NCBI RefSeq assembly: GCF_013394305.1
Contig: NZ_AP019810.1
Span: forward strand, 1,743,501-1,807,500
Length of the DNA: 64,000 nucleotides
Direction: 5' to 3'
Origin: Enterococcus mundtii
Lineage (GTDB): Bacteria; Bacillota; Bacilli; Lactobacillales; Enterococcaceae
In this document: positions 6,375 to 58,680 of the stretch, in pieces
Numbering within the stretch: the stretch's first letter is position 1
How the letters are laid out: each line of letters begins with the position of its first letter
Made by a program: the position numbers and the translations under genes
Notes under the pieces: model-generated
The model's database searches: none
Seen by the model: the letters and a program-made list of their open reading frames with translations, nothing else
Told to the model about the DNA's origin: nothing

Positions 6375-6518
6375 TCGAGATTTCTCTACCACTCACGTAG
6401 GTAGAATTACTGTTTCACCGAACGCCGCCTCGTCACTTCGACACTACTACGGTTTGTCTCGTTCTCCACAGTCGTTGATTCCCGACTAAGCCATCGGTAC
6501 ATATACAAAGTTGCGTGC
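6375..6518 (-). ncRNA. Probable omega RNA (TnpB guide RNA) region
   Basis: This stretch directly follows the tnpB stop and has no coding frame. On the minus strand it contains GGGAATCAACGACTGTGGAG and, further on, CGAAGTGACGAGGCGGCG, a string of short complementary segments of the kind seen in the right-end RNA scaffolds of TnpB elements. In this family the guide is the sequence immediately past the element end, which here would be treR upstream DNA. The exact 3' end is not determined. Confidence 0.45.
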
Positions 6519-18242: not shown

Positions 18243-18487
18243 AAAAAACGACCGCTTTGTAGGTACAAAAGGGCCGCTAAATTTCACAGAGTGATAAACC
18301 TCTCACAAAACATAGCGCAACTTAGCATCACTGCTAAGACAGTCCGTAAGCTGTTAACTTACGTCCCAACATACTTTTTAAGCAAAAAAAAGTACATTTC
18401 GGCGATCCTCCCTAGCCCTGCTTCCACATGTTTGCTTCACTCCACAGGTTTAATGATTCTCGCGACCTCTACCTCATTGATTGAGGC
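18243..18487 (-). promoter_or_regulatory. Lysine riboswitch (L-box) with intrinsic terminator
   Basis: On the minus strand the leader contains the L-box landmarks in order: AGAGGTCGCGAGAATCATTAA-like start (about 18450-18470), GGGAGGATCGCCGAA then a hairpin then GTTGGGA, and ACTGTC with a TTAGCA/TGCTAA hairpin then GCGCTATG ending near 18311. A terminator (CGGCC...GGTCG then six T) lies at 18243-18278, before the transporter gene. High lysine is expected to stop transcription here. Confidence 0.85.
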
Positions 18488-27083: not shown

Positions 27084-27117
27084 CGTCTAGCGTTCACGAG
27101 AAAGAAAAGGAGTATTT

Positions 27118-29229
27118 ATGTCAGAAAAACAAGTTTTTAAAACGACATGGGGCGGACGTCCCTTAGAGATCGAAGTTGGCCAATTAGCCAAACAAGCCAA
27201 TGGAGCAGTATTAGTTCGTTATGGGGATACGGTCGTATTAAGTGCGGCAGTTGCTTCAAAAGAAGCGAAAGATACAGATTTCTTCCCATTGACGATCAAT
27301 TATGAAGAAAAAATGTATGCAGCTGGTAAGATCCCAGGAGGATTTATCAAACGTGAAGGTCGTCCAAGTACGGAAGCAACCTTGACTGCTCGTTTGATCG
27401 ACCGTCCGATCCGTCCAATGTTTGCGGAAGGTTTCCGTAATGAAGTCCAAGTCACAAATATCGTGATGAGTGTAGAAACAGATTGTTCTCCAGCAATGGC
27501 AGCAATGTTAGGTTCTTCACTAGCTTTATCGATTTCAGATATCCCATTCGATGGACCGATCGCAGGTGTTGAAGTTGGCCGTGTCAATGGCGAATATGTC
27601 TTGAACCCAACAGTTGAACAAGCAGAGACTACCGATATCGAATTAAGCGTAGCTGGTACAAAACAAGCAATCAACATGGTTGAAAGTGGCGCAAAAGAAG
27701 TTTCAGAAGAAGATATGTTGGGCGCATTATTATTTGGATTTGACGCAATCAAAAAATTAGTCGCATTCCAAGAAGAAATCGTTCAAGCTGTCGGCAAAGA
27801 AAAAATGGAAGTTTCTTTATTACAAGTCGATGCTGACTTGAAAAAAGAAATTTTTGATGCATCGTATGGCACGATGAAAGAAGCGGTCATGACAGAAGAA
27901 AAATTAGCTCGTGAAGATAATATCGACCAAGTGAAAATCGATATTCGCGAAGCTTATGCAGAGAAATTTGCGGGTCATGAAGAGGAAGCACAATTACTAA
28001 AAGAAGTGAAACAAATTACGGAAGATCTTGAAAAAGACGTCGTTCGTGAGTTGATCACGATTGACAAAATCCGTCCTGATGGTCGTAAATTAGATGAGAT
28101 CCGTCCTTTAGCATCAGAAGTTGGCTTGTTGCCACGTGTTCATGGTTCTGGATTATTTACTCGTGGACAAACACAAGCACTATCATCATGTACATTGGCA
28201 CCTTTAGGGGAACACCAAATCATTGATGGCTTAGGTGTAGAAGTCAGCAAACGATTCATCCATCACTATAACTTCCCACAATTTTCTGTGGGTTCAACTG
28301 GTCGTGCCGGATCACCAGGTCGTCGAGAAATCGGTCATGGTGCATTAGGTGAACGTGCATTGGCACAAGTGATTCCTTCAGAAGAAGAGTTTCCTTACAC
28401 GATCCGTCTAGTGGCAGAAGTACTTGAATCGAATGGTTCATCTTCTCAAGCAAGTATCTGTGCAGGTACTTTAGCATTGATGGACGCAGGTGTGCCAATC
28501 AAAGCACCTGTTGCTGGTATTGCTATGGGATTAGTATCTGATGGTGAAAACTACACGATTTTAACAGACATCCAAGGTCTAGAAGACCATTTAGGCGACA
28601 TGGACTTCAAAGTTGCCGGAACAAAAGATGGAATCACAGCACTACAAATGGATATCAAGATCCAAGGTATCACGGAACAAATCTTAAAAGAAGCATTGGC
28701 ACAAGCAAAACAAGCACGTATGGAAATCTTAGAAGAATTGACTTCAACGATTGCTACACCACGTGAAGAGCTTAGCCAATATGCACCGAAAATCGAAATG
28801 ATCCAAATCGATCCTGCGAAAATCAAAGATGTCATCGGTAAAGGTGGCGATACGATCAATGGAATCATTGATGAAACAGGCGTGAAGATCGATATCGATC
28901 AAGACGGTAAAGTAAGTATTGCTTCTTCTGATAAAGAAATGATCCAAAAAGCAATCAAGATCATCGAAGATTTGACAAAAGAAGTCAAAGTTGGCGAAGT
29001 CTACCTTGGTAAAGTTGTTCGTATCGAAAAATTCGGTGCATTTGTCAACTTGATCAAAGGGAAAGACGGCTTAGTCCATATTTCTCAATTAGCGAATGAA
29101 CGTGTAAACAATGTAGAAGACGTTGTGAAACTAGGCGATGAAGTGTTGGTGAAAGTGACAGAGATCGACAAACAAGGTCGTGTGAATCTTTCAAGAAAAG
29201 CAATGTTGAACGAAGAGGACAAGAAGTAA
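27118..29229 (+). CDS. pnp: Polyribonucleotide nucleotidyltransferase (PNPase)
   Basis: The product is 703 residues. Two RNase PH domains (the second with [15 protein letters not shown] and the active-site region [20 protein letters not shown]) flank the alpha-helical linker. A KH domain ([16 protein letters not shown]) and an S1 domain ([19 protein letters not shown]) end the protein. It degrades RNA 3' to 5' with phosphate. AAAGGAG precedes the ATG. A long leader hairpin lies just upstream. Confidence 0.98.
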
Positions 29230-31904: not shown

Positions 31905-32001
31905 TTTTGTCGTCGCTAAGCAATGCTACAACCAATGTGACCAGAGCGATGGTAAACATGCCAAAGCTGAGCATCAATTGGACTGTATCGAGTGCCGACA
32001 A
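31897..32001 (-). CDS. Putative holin-like type I toxin
   Basis: The product is 34 residues from TTG 32001, with AAAGGAG 7 bases upstream. It has one hydrophobic helix (LMLSFGMFTIALVTLVVALL) and a charged tail SDDKKK, matching the holin-like toxin family (TxpA/BsrG relatives) in which a short membrane peptide is held off by an antisense RNA. The stop lies in the shared terminator. The 5' leader is about 90 bases and contains GACAGTACAGTTTAATGACG. Confidence 0.75.
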   Translation of the reverse strand: MSALDTVQLMLSFGMFTIALVTLVVALLSDDKKK

Positions 32002-32299
32002 AAGGCGTCTCCTTTCGTAAGATTTAGAAAGTATGTGCATACGCACCACCTCGTTTTCGAAGGATAGCCACCGTCATTAAACTGTACTGTCACGTAATAG
32101 CATAGCACATGCGCACATTTTAAACCTTAATTTATAAATTTTCTTGTTATTGAATAGCTGTTGAATGCTAGTGATACAAGTGAATAAATCCTCCCATTAT
32201 TTAGAGTGATCTAGTGGAGAAGCAGAAATCAAAAGCCTCCTAGTTATACTCTTTTTACGAAAAGTTGTACAATTGAAATGGAAAAGTGAGGCGAAACAA

Positions 32300-39807: not shown

Positions 39808-41028
39808 TTAATTCATGGTTTTCTTTGCTTGCCCCGCTTTTGCCCCGCCATCAAATTTTTTTAGCATTAGATCAAATTGTTCTATAGTTTCTTTACGTTT
39901 GTCTCCTGTTATGTGAGCGTAGATATTTAATGTAGTTTGAACATTTGAATGACCTAATAGTAATTGCAAAGATTTTGGATCAATTCCAGCCTGAATTTGC
40001 AAGGCGGTGTAAGTATGACGTAAGCCATGTAAAGTAATTTTAGGTAGATCGTTTTTTTGAATGATTACATTAAATTTAGTTCGGACATCTCTGGGTGTTA
40101 GAGGTGTTCCGTCTTTTTTGCAAAATAGAAACGAAGATTTTTTGTAGATATTTGGAAAAAGAGATGTATAAGTATCTCTTAAGCCAATCCATTTTTCTAT
40201 TTGCTTATAAGCTATTTCTGGTAACGGGACTGATCGATAAGCACTTTTTGTTTTGGGTGGGAATATTTTGTAGCTATTCTTCACTTGATTTCCTTCAGAT
40301 GATCCTAATGTTTTAGATATGTTAATTTCTTTTGTTAGTGGGTAGTAGTCATTGACGTACAGAGAACAGGCTTCACCAATACGAAGGCCACCATAAATTA
40401 ATAAATAATACAAAGCTAGATCACGTTGCTTTTCTAATGAAATATAAGCATTACAAGGCTTTCTTTTCTTAGTTATTTCAGATTTTACATACTTATCAAA
40501 TTTATTTATATCTATTAAATCCCAATGTTTTATTTTTTCTTCACTATCTTCATAGTGAGGGATTTTTACATTGGCAATAGGATTATATTTAAAATAGCGA
40601 TCTTTAACAGCTTGTTTTGCAACCATTTGTGCGATTTGATTAATGCTTAGCAAACTATTTTTCTTATATTTTTTTGAAAGTTCATTTAATTTTTTTTGAT
40701 ATAAATTATCTGTGAGATCTTTAAGCTTTAATTGCCCCATTGTGCTTTTTAGTGTTTTTAAATATTGTTTACGTGACCTTAAGGATGTTTCTTTTACAGT
40801 CCTTTTATACAGTTCAAACCAATGATCGGCATAGTCTTTAAACAGAATGTTAGGGTTATTTTTGACATTTCCATCTTTTACATCGATAAAAGCGACAGAA
40901 GCAGCATACTCTGCCTCAGCCTTAGTTTTAAACCCACTTTTGCTATGCTCTGCTTTTTTACCTGTAAAGGGGTCAACATATCTAATTCGATATTCCCATT
41001 GTTTGCCTCTTTTTCTGAATGTAGCCAC
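39808..41028 (-). CDS. int: Tyrosine site-specific integrase
   Basis: The product is about 406 residues. An N-terminal AP2-like arm-binding domain (FRKRGKQWEYRIRYVDPFTG) and a SAM-like core-binding domain precede the catalytic domain. The latter has Arg in YGGLRIGEAC, HGLRHTYTA, LLGHSNVQTT and the Tyr nucleophile in LNIYAHI. It inserts the phage next to udk. GTG 41028 has AGGAGG 7 bases upstream. Confidence 0.95.
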   Translation of the reverse strand: MATFRKRGKQWEYRIRYVDPFTGKKAEHSKSGFKTKAEAEYAASVAFIDVKDGNVKNNPNILFKDYADHWFELYKRTVKETSLRSRKQYLKTLKSTMGQLKLKDLTDNLYQKKLNELSKKYKKNSLLSINQIAQMVAKQAVKDRYFKYNPIANVKIPHYEDSEEKIKHWDLIDINKFDKYVKSEITKKRKPCNAYISLEKQRDLALYYLLIYGGLRIGEACSLYVNDYYPLTKEINISKTLGSSEGNQVKNSYKIFPPKTKSAYRSVPLPEIAYKQIEKWIGLRDTYTSLFPNIYKKSSFLFCKKDGTPLTPRDVRTKFNVIIQKNDLPKITLHGLRHTYTALQIQAGIDPKSLQLLLGHSNVQTTLNIYAHITGDKRKETIEQFDLMLKKFDGGAKAGQAKKTMN

Positions 41029-41041
41029 CAAAATACCTCCT

Positions 41042-41422: not shown

Positions 41423-41851
41423 TTACATATATCTATATAATTCATAAGGTAGTCCCATGTAGTCTAGCAGTTCATATTTATTTAAATCTCCTATAATAGA
41501 TTGGTCTTGCAAGTGTAAAATCAATTGTACAGCGAGATAATTAGCCTCATACTCCATTTTAGAGATAAATTTATCTAAACCTAAGGTACGATAAAATGGA
41601 GTACTGGCTCCACCGTGTAGTTGTATGTGACTAAATTCGTGTAATATGACAAACTGCTGATAATGTTCTGGCCAGTTCCTGTTGACAATTATTGTATGAC
41701 ATCGATTATTGGTTTGTGTACATCCACCTGTTTCGAAATCAAGGTCAGCATATAGTAGCTTGCATTTTGCATCTTTTACCAGCTGATAGACATTAGAGGG
41801 TTGGTACTTTCTTATGATTTTTTCAAACTCGCTATTTAGATACACGCTCAT
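41423..41851 (-). CDS. ImmA/IrrE family metallo-endopeptidase
   Basis: The product is about 142 residues. The zinc motif HEFSHIQLHG (HExxH) and a downstream MEYEANYLAVQL give a gluzincin active site. In ICEBs1-like systems such proteins cleave the phage repressor after DNA damage, and the repressor gene is directly upstream here. ATG 41851 has GGTTGGTGG upstream; 13 bp separate the genes. Confidence 0.85.
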   Translation of the reverse strand: MSVYLNSEFEKIIRKYQPSNVYQLVKDAKCKLLYADLDFETGGCTQTNNRCHTIIVNRNWPEHYQQFVILHEFSHIQLHGGASTPFYRTLGLDKFISKMEYEANYLAVQLILHLQDQSIIGDLNKYELLDYMGLPYELYRYM

Positions 41852-41864
41852 AAAATCCACCAAC

Positions 41865-42278
41865 CTAGTCTCTATAGTCTTTTCTAGTAAATTTCTGTTT
41901 TGCCTCTTCCTTATTCATTTCCATTGCAGTTTTAATAGCAATTAATAGCCGATCTTTTTGATCTTTTGTTGCTGGTTCGCCATAAAAATTAAGGTTTTCT
42001 CCGTTAGTAATTCCTTCAATTAATTCTTCCGCTTGAATAGCAATATCATTCTTTTCCTTTTTGGAGAGTTCATAGTAACGACGTTTGTCTGAACGTCCTA
42101 ACAGATAATCAGTACTTACATCAAAGTAATCTGCTACTTTTTGAATTTTGTCACCAGAAGGTATACTTTTGTTCCAGTTTCTAAGACTACCGTGACTGAA
42201 GTTAAGTTTCCTTTCTAATTCTGCACGTGTCATTTTATTCTCACTTATCAATAAATCTATCCGTTCTAAAAGCAACAT
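41865..42278 (-). CDS. CI-like phage repressor (XRE family)
   Basis: The product is 137 residues. An N-terminal helix-turn-helix (MTRAELERKLNFSHGSLRNWNK; VADYFDVSTDYLLGRSD) is followed by a short C-terminal domain with no peptidase motif. Cleavage by the adjacent ImmA-like protein is therefore likely. AGGAGGACAAC precedes the ATG. The operators lie in the divergent region to the right. Confidence 0.9.
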   Translation of the reverse strand: MLLLERIDLLISENKMTRAELERKLNFSHGSLRNWNKSIPSGDKIQKVADYFDVSTDYLLGRSDKRRYYELSKKEKNDIAIQAEELIEGITNGENLNFYGEPATKDQKDRLLIAIKTAMEMNKEEAKQKFTRKDYRD

Positions 42279-42786: not shown

Positions 42787-42906
42787 ATGAAAATCACGAT
42801 CGAAGCAACGCCAGAAGAAGTAAAAGAATTGCTCCAAGCTACTGAGATTAGCGAGGAGCAAAAAAATGGTGCTAAAGAACTTTGGATTTCTGGTATTAAG
42901 GTTTAA
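42787..42906 (+). CDS. Short ITIEATPEEVK protein, module copy 1
   Basis: The product is 39 residues. Its first 18 (MKITIEATPEEVKELLQA) are nearly identical to genes at 45315 and 58106, after which all three diverge. AGAGGAAG precedes the ATG. Its stop shares TTAA with the stop of the convergent gene. This is one of three copies of the same arrangement in the prophage. Confidence 0.7.
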   Translation: MKITIEATPEEVKELLQATEISEEQKNGAKELWISGIKV

Positions 42907-43088
42907 TCTTCATTTTTAAAATCAGTAGATACCGAAGACAGGAAATGATTATAAAGTTTTTTGTATTCTATATAAGCATCAAATCTGACTTGTTCGCCAT
43001 TTTTAATCTTTGTTTGAATTTGTTCACGCATAAATGGCAATGAAGCTACCGCTAAATCGTGAGCTCTCTGTTCGTTAGTTAAAGACAT
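42903..43088 (-). CDS. Minus-strand phage protein, module copy 1
   Basis: The product is 61 residues (LTNEQRAHDLAVASLPFMRE at the start), predicted helical, similar in style to small lysogeny-region proteins of Gram-positive phages. AAGGGGG precedes the ATG by 7 bases. It has its own promoter and an AGTGGTC-loop leader, and runs against the direction of the early operon. Confidence 0.75.
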   Translation of the reverse strand: MSLTNEQRAHDLAVASLPFMREQIQTKIKNGEQVRFDAYIEYKKLYNHFLSSVSTDFKNED

Positions 43089-43143
43089 AGATATACCCCC
43101 TTACTAATTATTTCGGCGGACCACTCGCCGATATCTAATTATA
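43089..43143 (-). promoter_or_regulatory. Promoter and AGTGGTC-loop leader hairpin, copy 1
   Basis: On the minus strand an extended -10 (TGCTATAAT, -10 at 43143-43138) is followed by CGGCG-AGTGGTC-CGCCG (43130-43114), then the ribosome site. The loop is identical in all three copies and the stem differs. Confidence 0.7.
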
Positions 43144-43144
43144 G

Positions 43145-43177
43145 CAAAAAAAACTGCACTAGTTTCCGCTAGTACAG
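43145..43177 (-). terminator. Terminator insulating module copy 1
   Basis: On the minus strand CTGTACTAG and CTAGTGCAG pair and are followed by eight T, which run into the promoter of the minus-strand gene. Confidence 0.6.
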
Positions 43178-45677: not shown

Positions 45678-45881
45678 TTACTGATTTAACCAATGGTGAT
45701 ACTCTTCCAAGAGCCTAAGCGACATGTAAAAGGATACGCCTGCAATTTCTTGATGATTATCTTTTCTTTCTAAATTTTTTCTACCTTTTTGGAAATCATC
45801 ATTAGCTTTAGTAGCGATTTCAAATCGTTTTTCGGAATTAAGAGTTGCAATAAAATCTTCAAATTGTTTCGTGTCGTCCAC
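45678..45881 (-). CDS. Minus-strand phage protein, module copy 2
   Basis: The product is about 67 residues, helical (KQFEDFIATLNSEKRFEIAT; SFYMSLRLLEEYHHWLNQ), unrelated to the minus-strand partners of copies 1 and 3. The start is uncertain: GTG 45881 touches AAGGAGG, and a TTG at 45893 lies in the leader. It is preceded by the same type of promoter and AGTGGTC leader hairpin. Confidence 0.65.
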   Translation of the reverse strand: MDDTKQFEDFIATLNSEKRFEIATKANDDFQKGRKNLERKDNHQEIAGVSFYMSLRLLEEYHHWLNQ

Positions 45882-45930
45882 CCTCCTTATCAATTATTTC
45901 AGCCGACCACTGACTGATAAGGAAATTATA
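45882..45930 (-). promoter_or_regulatory. Promoter and AGTGGTC-loop leader hairpin, copy 2
   Basis: On the minus strand -10 TATAAT (45930-45925) is followed by CAGTC-AGTGGTC-GGCTG (45916-45900), extended by an outer CCTTATCA/TGATAAGG pairing. In this copy the outer stem includes part of the ribosome site. Confidence 0.7.
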
Positions 45931-58105: not shown

Positions 58106-58228
58106 ATGGAAATCACAATTAAAGCAACGCCAGAAGAAGTAAAAGAATTGCTCCAAGCTATTAGGAGTAGCAAGGAGCAAATTGATATTCAAGCGATTTT
58201 GGGTAAAAAAAGTAGTAATGACGGTTAA
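58106..58228 (+). CDS. Short ITIKATPEEVK protein, module copy 3
   Basis: The product is 40 residues: MEITIKATPEEVKELLQAIR, then a short divergent tail. GAAGAAGGACAAAGA precedes the ATG. Its stop shares TTAA with the stop of the convergent Cas2-like gene, as in copy 1. Confidence 0.7.
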   Translation: MEITIKATPEEVKELLQAIRSSKEQIDIQAILGKKSSNDG

Positions 58229-58500
58229 TAAATATTTTCATTGATAAATTTCCAAGATTCTGTATAGAGCCACCCTGAATGATCGTTACCTATCTCAGTT
58301 ACAAAAATCAAATCATTGTCATCAAGCGCATGTTTTTTTAAACTATCTCTCATTTGTTCTGCAGTCATACTGGTATTAATTAGCCAGAAGGATTCTAATG
58401 GCTTAATATGCCAGCAATTCCAGGACTCAATTGTTTCGACAACTTTTTGATACTTTTGGCCGGGAGAGTGTAAATCATATGATAGAACATAGGATTTCAT
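58225..58500 (-). CDS. Stand-alone Cas2-like (SinR-type) protein, module copy 3
   Basis: The product is 91 residues. MKSYVLSYDLHSPGQKYQKV followed by ESFWLINTSMTAEQMRDSLK and DDNDLIFVTEI fits the ferredoxin-like Cas2/VapD-related family that occurs outside CRISPR loci. The first-strand Asp in SYDL, metal-linked in Cas2, is kept. No CRISPR array or cas genes are in the window. It has its own promoter and AGTGGTC leader hairpin. Confidence 0.75.
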   Translation of the reverse strand: MKSYVLSYDLHSPGQKYQKVVETIESWNCWHIKPLESFWLINTSMTAEQMRDSLKKHALDDNDLIFVTEIGNDHSGWLYTESWKFINENIY

Positions 58501-58560
58501 TCGAGTTCACCACCGTTCCTTATTATTTTAGCGGACCACTCGCTAATAATTAAAATTATA
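58501..58560 (-). promoter_or_regulatory. Promoter and AGTGGTC-loop leader hairpin, copy 3
   Basis: On the minus strand TTGTGA, 16 bp and TATAAT (58560-58555) are followed by TTAGCG-AGTGGTC-CGCTAA (58546-58528). The stem sequence differs from copies 1 and 2 while the loop is identical. Confidence 0.7.
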
Positions 58561-58591
58561 CACTATGTATGCTTGTTCACAATGGAATAAT

Positions 58592-58680
58592 GTCGCTGTG
58601 GCGGAAAGGGTAGACGCTATGGATGAGTCCTATACTGCACTTTGGTGTGGTTGTGTAAGGTTCGATTCCTTGCCAGCGAC
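58592..58680 (+). tRNA. tRNA-like RNA, Leu(GAG) type, non-canonical
   Basis: The cloverleaf can be drawn: acceptor GTCGCTG/CAGCGAC (7 bp), D-arm GCG/CGC, anticodon stem TATGG/CTATA with loop ATGAGTC (anticodon GAG), long variable arm GCAC/GTGT and T-loop TTCGATT. Odd points: the T-stem is 6 bp, there is no base between D and anticodon stems, base 37 is T, and the 3' end is TTT rather than CCA. It may be a degenerate or modified-role tRNA. Confidence 0.6.

Follow-up and report, generated by a model that had tools for sequence, protein, structure and literature searches.

A mobile promoter-leader cassette of Enterococcaceae phages shares its AGUGGUC hairpin loop with Ref1C-type small RNAs

Why should three genes of a single prophage begin with the same promoter box and with a hairpin whose loop is identical while the bases of its stem differ, and what might such a hairpin do? 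The window analysed here, a stretch of 64,000 nucleotides from Enterococcus mundtii, contains a prophage marked by an integrase (39808-41031), an IrrE-like peptidase and a Cro/C1-type HTH protein (41423-42278), an anti-repressor (43822), an Erf-like protein (46756) and a terminase (59994). An earlier note, made from the sequence alone, had placed the three hairpins on the minus strand, and all were found there, with stems of 6 bp (43131-43113, 45917-45899 and 58546-58528), the loop AGTGGTC identical in each and a TATAAT box ahead of each.

Architecture and covariation of the leader

Copy 1 (stem TCGGCG/CGCCGA, loop 43125-43119) scores 51 bits with the leader covariance model described below and folds at -9.2 kcal/mol as an isolated 20-mer; its -10 box lies at 43138-43143, with a predicted +1 at A43132, and it stands before a gene of 61 aa (42903-43088) belonging to the SLTNEQRAHDL family. 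Copy 2 (stem TCAGTC/GGCTGA, loop 45911-45905; 58 bits) follows a -10 box at 45925-45930 which is preceded by TGG, has a predicted +1 at A45918, and leads into an ORF assigned to phrog_8353 (45678-45893), of 71 aa as listed and with an uncertain start codon, no ATG being found at the normal spacing from AAGGAGG. Copy 3 (stem TTAGCG/CGCTAA, loop 58540-58534; 56 bits) has a promoter at 58555-58582 composed of TTGTGA, 16 nt and TATAAT (58560-58555) with an upstream region of type A, a predicted +1 at A58547 and a gene of 91 aa (58225-58500; phrog_1090) whose product may be Cas2-like; in phage phiFL1A a leader similar to this one precedes a gene noted as sinR-like. None of the three window cargo proteins scored above the Pfam cut-offs.

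The order of elements is the same in all three copies: TATAAT, 4-6 nt, TAT, from the last T of which the stem begins, AGTGGTC, the return stem, AATAA and the ribosome site. The hairpin thus does not follow the -10 box at once, as had been claimed, and AAATAA or AATAA just 3' of the stem is a further common feature. As the A of TAT falls at the expected +1, it is predicted to be the transcription start and the stem would begin at +2, a prediction based on the -10 spacing and on the TAT common to all aligned leaders, mismatched ones included; the start of the stem relative to the -10 box ranges over only 2 nt. The joint pattern TATAAT-N(9-17)-AGTGGTC-N6-AATAA occurs three times in the window and in none of 100 shuffles, and the 7-mer alone is moderately enriched (nine occurrences; mean of 4.0 and maximum of 8 in 100 shuffles). 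Elsewhere in the same genome there is a fourth AGTGGTC leader (C1:1491707), together with two relatives with other loops (C1:414200 and C1:2403345).

Two further features lie close to copy 1. At 42765-42743 on the minus strand, upstream of the repressor region, a possible small hairpin (TTTATTT/AAATAAA) stands behind another TATAAT and reaches only 17 bits with the leader model. A short plus-strand ORF beginning MKITIEATPEEVKELLQA... (42787-42906, 39 aa) overlaps the end of the copy 1 cargo gene, and a similar ORF sits, by eye, between cassettes in locus L285.

The earlier proposal that this is an RNA element, with a compensating stem under a constrained loop, is well supported by covariation, by a stem count made without a filter and by a scan for loop variants. 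Among 28 leaders, five of the six stem pairs have changed on both sides and the sixth is invariant; as these leaders were selected for TATAAT (TAAAAT in one), AGTGGTC and no fewer than 5 bp of stem, their full pairing holds partly by construction, and so does the constancy of their loop and -10 box. The covariation score, 0.459 as compared with 0.247 in shuffles that ignore kinship, was reached in none of 500 shuffles, and slid versions of the stem scored at most 0.166. The same stem filter of at least 5 bp underlies the tallies of outer stem, strand, loop variants, protein clusters and leader-selected terminators given below. Mismatched stems occur in some leaders that otherwise look genuine (L065/L110, L018, L050 and L255); when four mismatched leaders are included, pairing is kept in 187 of 192 cells, and the score of 0.415 (0.215 in shuffles, kinship again ignored) once more lies above all 500 shuffles. 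Without the stem filter, a 6-bp stem was present in 117 of the 125 pattern occurrences among the 120 IMG/VR loci listed. The 26 distinct forms among these matches comprise 20 with a 6-bp stem and six without, to which the remaining eight occurrences belong, namely three mismatched leaders and three forms apparently due to chance. Two-sided changes in five of six pairs, retained when mismatched leaders are included, thus argue that the element acts as RNA.

The loop is more constant than the stem beneath it. A scan of the Enterococcaceae in which the loop was left open (TATAMT, TATC, GAAATAA) gave 52 matches. Stems of 5 bp or longer occur in 38 of them, and the loop is AGTGGTC in 29 of these 38, two of which have A.C in place of the closing pair. 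Seven scans of IMG/VR, covering every single-base variant of AGTGGTC in the leader frame, found 39 stretches, 22 of which combine a 6-bp stem with a -10 box, the other 17 having 0-3 bp and no -10 box. Across the distinct contexts collected, at least 112 keep AGTGGTC as against 18 with one change. Changes at loop positions 2, 6 and 7 keep a possible cross-loop pair (A2-U6, G2-C6 or A1-U7) in nine of ten contexts (P = 0.011 at a chance of one half, although these contexts are not all independent and all the changes are transitions), and positions 3-5 show four transitions and four transversions; the variant GGTGGTC, seen in small RNAs, would allow G1-C7. This pattern suggests a loop of A.C and G.U wobble pairs under a UGG triloop, although a transition bias could produce it equally.

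Leaders with quite different loops also exist in phage-like loci (CTGCAA, TATTTACTT, GTGACAG and ATTTGTA), keeping the stem and the TATC and GAAATAA flanks, from which it follows that AGTGGTC is not indispensable; matches to the model, which was trained on AGTGGTC leaders, will favour that loop. A further type, with the loops AGCAAGA, AGCAAAA, AACAAGA and TGCAAGA, is found in L245:4201-4237, L282, L283 and L284, where it precedes a small Cys-rich protein. The locus is conserved, with what by eye is an asparagine-synthase-like gene nearby, and its neighbours have a chromosomal look in three of the four genomes, those in L282 being phage-like in appearance on one side.

The cassette, its cargo and its distribution

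Leaders were also found well beyond the window, in a covariance-model search of the kind that the earlier note had suggested. The model, built from 28 distinct sequences and applied at E 0.01 per genome, has matches in 31 of 106 Enterococcaceae genomes. In wider samples it matched 29 of 396 genomes of the order, nine of them outside the Enterococcaceae, four of 398 genomes of the class, all inside the order, and one of 299 genomes of the phylum, which is the genome of the window itself. At least 120 stretches with the leader pattern are present in IMG/VR, and among 84,980 species genomes the pattern occurs in 73 stretches, of which 17 have a 6-bp stem, all in Enterococcus or Vagococcus, the rest having 0-3 bp (55) or 4 bp (one), as expected by chance. 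Comparison by eye of L203 with L169 shows that genome G034, of the same genus as the window, shares a leader with E. thailandicus. A BLAST search of phage records with copy 1 and its flanks gave no match. The record PQ554527 (Acinetobacter phage D2SVT) is 84% identical over 70 nt to an enterococcal leader query and is possibly mislabelled or contaminated, and leader-like matches occur in two E. faecium records filed as plasmids, CP042835 and NZ_CP091215, which may be phage-plasmids.

The genes behind the leader are diverse. From 117 combinations of leader and protein, 48 protein clusters were obtained (BLAST 1e-3; ORFs were chosen automatically and some may be wrong), and one identical 38-nt leader stands before 12 of them. 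Both promoter types are found in 10 of the 23 clusters with several members, type B promoters having TG at -15/-14 in 58 of 73 cases. The cargo proteins are short and mostly unnamed; three of ten compared with the Pfam cut-offs passed (DUF1508, YjzC and KTSC), the ten consisting of nine encoded after AGTGGTC leaders and one after an AGCAAGA-type leader. With regard to orientation, 132 contexts were considered, eight of which were too short to judge, and in 111 of the other 124 the leader opposes most of the neighbouring coding sequence (computed ORFs, with near-duplicates by descent kept in). In phiFL1A the gene that follows the leader, gp05, noted as sinR-like, lies on the same strand as the repressor and integrase and opposite the lytic genes. 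Such opposition fits accessory genes of the lysogeny strand, which would presumably be expressed in the lysogen. The leader is a mobile promoter-leader cassette, mainly of Enterococcaceae phages, which drives small accessory genes on the lysogeny strand of the prophage.

A comparable arrangement is found in the PeSL cassettes (promoter early stem-loops) of T4-like phages, in which a promoter and a stem-loop are said to mediate gene shuffling among related phages of this kind (available portion of PMC4503421); here also a promoter and a stem-loop precede unrelated genes, and copy 1 may be seen as a composite of terminator and promoter, a GCGGAAA-loop terminator lying just upstream of it and of nine further distinct contexts, whilst the leader hairpin itself is followed by no T run. 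As far as the PeSL are described in that portion, the leader differs in placing its hairpin after the promoter, within the mRNA, in having a conserved loop, and in belonging to temperate phages and to their lysogeny strand.

Divergent from copy 3 is a tRNA-like RNA (58592-58680, plus strand) with acceptor, D and T arms and an aberrant middle. Twelve distinct copies, found by means of their conserved ends, share the acceptor (GTCGCTG/CAGCGAC or GTCACTG/CAGTGAC) and the D and T arms, with an anticodon region hypervariable in both sequence and length (79-134 nt in all, including 4 nt of tail). ARAGORN calls one of the twelve, and Rfam gives a weak tRNA-Sec match only. The RNA occurs elsewhere in L301, L271, L230, L094, L106, L008, L012, L031, L058, L070, L076 and L354, mostly divergent from type-A leaders, and 39 of 135 distinct leader contexts have, no more than 80 nt upstream, a flank pattern characteristic of its 5' end. 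It is possibly a tRNA mimic; we treat it as a neighbour of copy 3 with, at most, a putative role in the leader mechanism.

The loop shared with Ref1C-type small RNAs

Is the loop known from any other RNA? At gathering score Rfam 15 has four matches in the window, none of them at the leaders, where no known riboswitch, leader or thermometer was found. The four lie outside the prophage on the minus strand and are a lysine riboswitch (18305-18479), rliD (27088-27267), rli28 (31926-32109) and RAGATH-18 (6407-6472). Weak matches to L10_leader and S15 at copy 1 were taken as chance. Open-access papers containing the string AGUGGUC include none, by title, on phages or bacterial RNA; AGTGGTC is absent among the matches listed for that literature, in which no paper joining Ref1C and Enterococcus was found either; and the loop is not named in the portions available of PMC7724050 (on dRNA-seq start sites of E. 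faecalis V583 and E. faecium AUS0004), PMC10117718, PMC3166299, PMC4503421, PMC3014915 and PMC3997798.

The statement of the earlier note that no named motif has this loop does not hold, since the 3' hairpin of the Rfam family Ref1C (RF02845) carries AGUGGUC. Copy 1 matches this model weakly, at 27.3-32.9 bits against a cut-off of 90, and at gathering score the model has no match in the window. At E 0.01 it gives 25 matches in 19 of 106 genomes, only four genomes exceeding the Rfam cut-off. Among 20 loci fetched with the model, AGTGGTC lies on a terminator-like hairpin in 14, a near variant (AGTGTTC, GGTGGTC or AGGTGGTC) in three and neither in three. In a typical RNA of this type, a first hairpin with the loop GCGGAAA stands ahead of the AGTGGTC hairpin. 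To align such small RNAs, 27 distinct hairpin pairs picked by their loops were reduced by ten in which a terminator was followed by a leader and by one chance match, and three were added; the resulting 19 sequences form 17 pairs, 13 of which have changed on both sides, and 15 of the 19 carry AGTGGTC.

A model of these 19 small RNAs matches 26 of 106 genomes, 13 of which also have leaders against 7.6 expected (p = 0.009), a co-occurrence that may reflect just prophage load. On copy 1 it reaches 32.8 bits (43187-43105), with both hairpins present, the first being the hairpin at 43146-43177 on the minus strand. The GCGGAAA loop of this hairpin and its run of eight T (43177-43146), just upstream of the leader, give copy 1 the appearance of a Ref1C RNA interrupted by a promoter. 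In copies 2 and 3 there is no first hairpin of the Ref1C type (19 bits), and in none of the three is the AGTGGTC hairpin followed by a U run. The likeness to Ref1C thus lies in the AGUGGUC loop on a covarying stem and, in copy 1, in the GCGGAAA-loop hairpin placed in the same order; the difference is that Ref1C is a short RNA whose AGUGGUC hairpin is terminator-like, with a U run, whereas the leader hairpin has no U run, lies at a predicted mRNA 5' end and has genes downstream. What is new here is that the AGUGGUC loop is common to leaders and Ref1C-type terminators, and that upstream of copy 1 lies a hairpin resembling the first one of Ref1C.

How far terminators in general carry the loop depends on the sample. 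At leader-selected loci one of 137 terminators with a seven-base loop has exactly AGTGGTC, and one more has GGTGGTC (0.008 expected by chance at equal base use), so the link between leaders and small RNAs rests mainly on the Ref1C family; at mixed loci the tally is 10 of 36, a set biased by the many loci that the Ref1C model had supplied. The loop CTGCAA likewise occurs both in leaders (L286 and L019) and in terminator-like hairpins (L255, L257 and L046). Of ten small RNA loci viewed by eye, a count which does not include L329 and L330, six are prophage-like with the small RNA opposite lytic genes (L324, L327, L328, L332, L334 and L335), one (L331) lies among conjugation-like genes and three (L325, L326 and L333) are in ordinary chromosome. 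Two prophages, at L332:7040-7820 and L324:8472-9107, also carry arrays of short promoter-plus-terminator RNAs with the loop GCGGAAA opposite lytic genes; some RNAs of these arrays have a second hairpin with AGTGGTC or GGTGGTC, and single GCGGAAA terminators are found elsewhere too.

Possible modes of action

The reading that we favour, at somewhat less than even odds (roughly 0.45), is that the 5'-terminal hairpin protects the mRNA while a trans-acting factor, common to these leaders and to the Ref1C-type small RNAs, reads its loop; both the factor and the sign of its effect are what we infer from the arrangement of the sequences. Transcription would start at the A of the conserved TAT and give an mRNA with one unpaired nucleotide, a 6-bp hairpin with AGUGGUC, AAAUAA and the ribosome site. 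With a single nucleotide unpaired, the hairpin would keep pyrophosphohydrolase and RNase J away from the 5' end, and the loop would offer a site at which an RNA-binding factor could set the stability or translation of all the cassette mRNAs jointly. Ref1C-type small RNAs, with the same loop on their terminators, would compete for this factor as a decoy.

Recognition of the loop by a protein or another RNA, as the earlier note had proposed, is plausible and gains from the loop shared with the small RNAs, for which a common binding factor is the best explanation. That one factor would read the AGUGGUC 5' hairpins of dozens of unrelated lysogenic mRNAs, and be titrated by small RNAs carrying GCGGAAA and AGUGGUC hairpins, is a more tentative extension which we consider possible but doubtful. 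The CsrA system offers a parallel, in that a short loop motif is found in mRNA leaders and also in small RNAs such as CsrB and RsmY, which soak up the binding protein. However, each of the aligned small RNAs here bears one AGUGGUC-type loop, not many, and AGUGGUC does not contain the GGA motif of CsrA-type systems. As a separate candidate, pairing of the loop with 16S rRNA (GUGGUC with GAUCAC, by eye; the latter presumably lies near the anti-Shine-Dalgarno) was rejected, as the variants AGTGGCC and AGTGTTC would break it.

The shielding part of the favoured reading draws on work in other bacteria: purified RppH of B. subtilis needs at least two unpaired 5' nucleotides, with G at position 2 as a critical determinant, and in E. 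coli mRNAs gain stability from secondary structure at the 5' end (both from the accessible part of PMC3997798). With one unpaired A and a paired U at the 5' end of the leader, decay that depends on this end should be slow, provided that the Bacillus rule carries over to Enterococcus. Against the favoured reading, folding of the full-length leaders gives the hairpin as the minimum-energy form in copy 1 only, other folds winning in copies 2 and 3, although the isolated 20-mers of all three form it. Shielding of this kind would account for the stem and its position, not for the loop, and here the favoured reading parts from a simpler one in which the hairpin does nothing else, the stem at +2 blocking 5'-end-dependent decay while the loop is kept as a favourable cap and by recombination of the cassettes. 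The near-fixed distance of the stem from the -10 box, the retention of stem and flanks in leaders with other loops, and the cross-loop pair preserved when positions 2, 6 and 7 change, with positions 3-5 free to take transversions, are all in keeping with a structural cap. However, the loop is kept in the great majority of contexts while the stem bases vary, and the preserved pairs come from transitions in partly related contexts which mutation may simply favour; we therefore regard stabilisation alone as unlikely, though a reading to be taken seriously.

An RNA-RNA control is less probable again. Since leaders oppose their neighbours in most contexts, and the small RNAs do so at the six phage-like loci, lytic transcripts would carry antisense copies with complementary GACCACU loops, and pairing between the loops could titrate lytic mRNA or silence the cassettes on induction. 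Hairpins with the complementary loop were, however, seen only as such antisense copies and not as a separate class, and the loop is not self-complementary; among 66 distinct AGTGGTC hairpins, the four without TATAAT are a terminator, a leader with TAAAAT and two isolated hairpins.

Very improbable, in our judgement, is a ribosome-site switch, in which an outer stem would hide the Shine-Dalgarno in read-through transcripts and not in mRNA begun at the cassette promoter, in the manner of T4 e and soc. Type-B leaders such as copy 2 can indeed pair CCTTATCA with TGATAAGG, half of the left arm in copy 2 lying upstream of the predicted start. In L285 (4195-4235 and 4718-4755) there are mini-leaders of the form TATACTCACT...AGTGAGGTG in which, by eye, CTCACT pairs with AGTGAG over the ribosome site, the left arm lying between the -10 box and the likely start and the right arm being the ribosome site itself. 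Hiding of ribosome sites has precedent in the T4 leaders of gene e, soc, 49 and I-TevI, where hairpin and promoter likewise overlap near the ribosome site and the helix hides it in long transcripts (excerpted text of PMC3014915). Unlike what such a mechanism would lead one to expect, the outer stem that had been traced to the ribosome site in copy 2 shows no pair-specific covariation in 114 leaders, in which permuting the arms leaves the pairing essentially as strong (-3.52 kcal/mol for native and -3.49 for permuted arms, 39% of 2000 permutations being as good), and the outer stem was rejected as a selected feature; as type-B left arms contain CCTT, they can pair with almost any ribosome site.

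Least probable of all is an element that works purely as DNA, whether as an operator or as a site of recombination for cassette shuffling, for although identical leaders before up to 12 protein clusters could serve as shared homology, the arms change with pairing kept around an asymmetric conserved loop and the small RNA terminators carry the same loop on other arms.

The leader provides a sequence handle on many little-characterised small proteins, apparently set for expression in enterococcal lysogens, and its loop ties them to an orphan small RNA family, Ref1C. E. faecalis and E. faecium lack Hfq and ProQ, and tRNAs, sRNAs and 3'UTRs are reported as ligands of the E. faecalis protein KhpB (both according to the portion available of PMC10117718). 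A factor that reads the AGUGGUC loop, if one exists, would act as a post-transcriptional regulator where Hfq and ProQ are both missing. Should such a network exist, any gene placed behind the cassette would join it at once.
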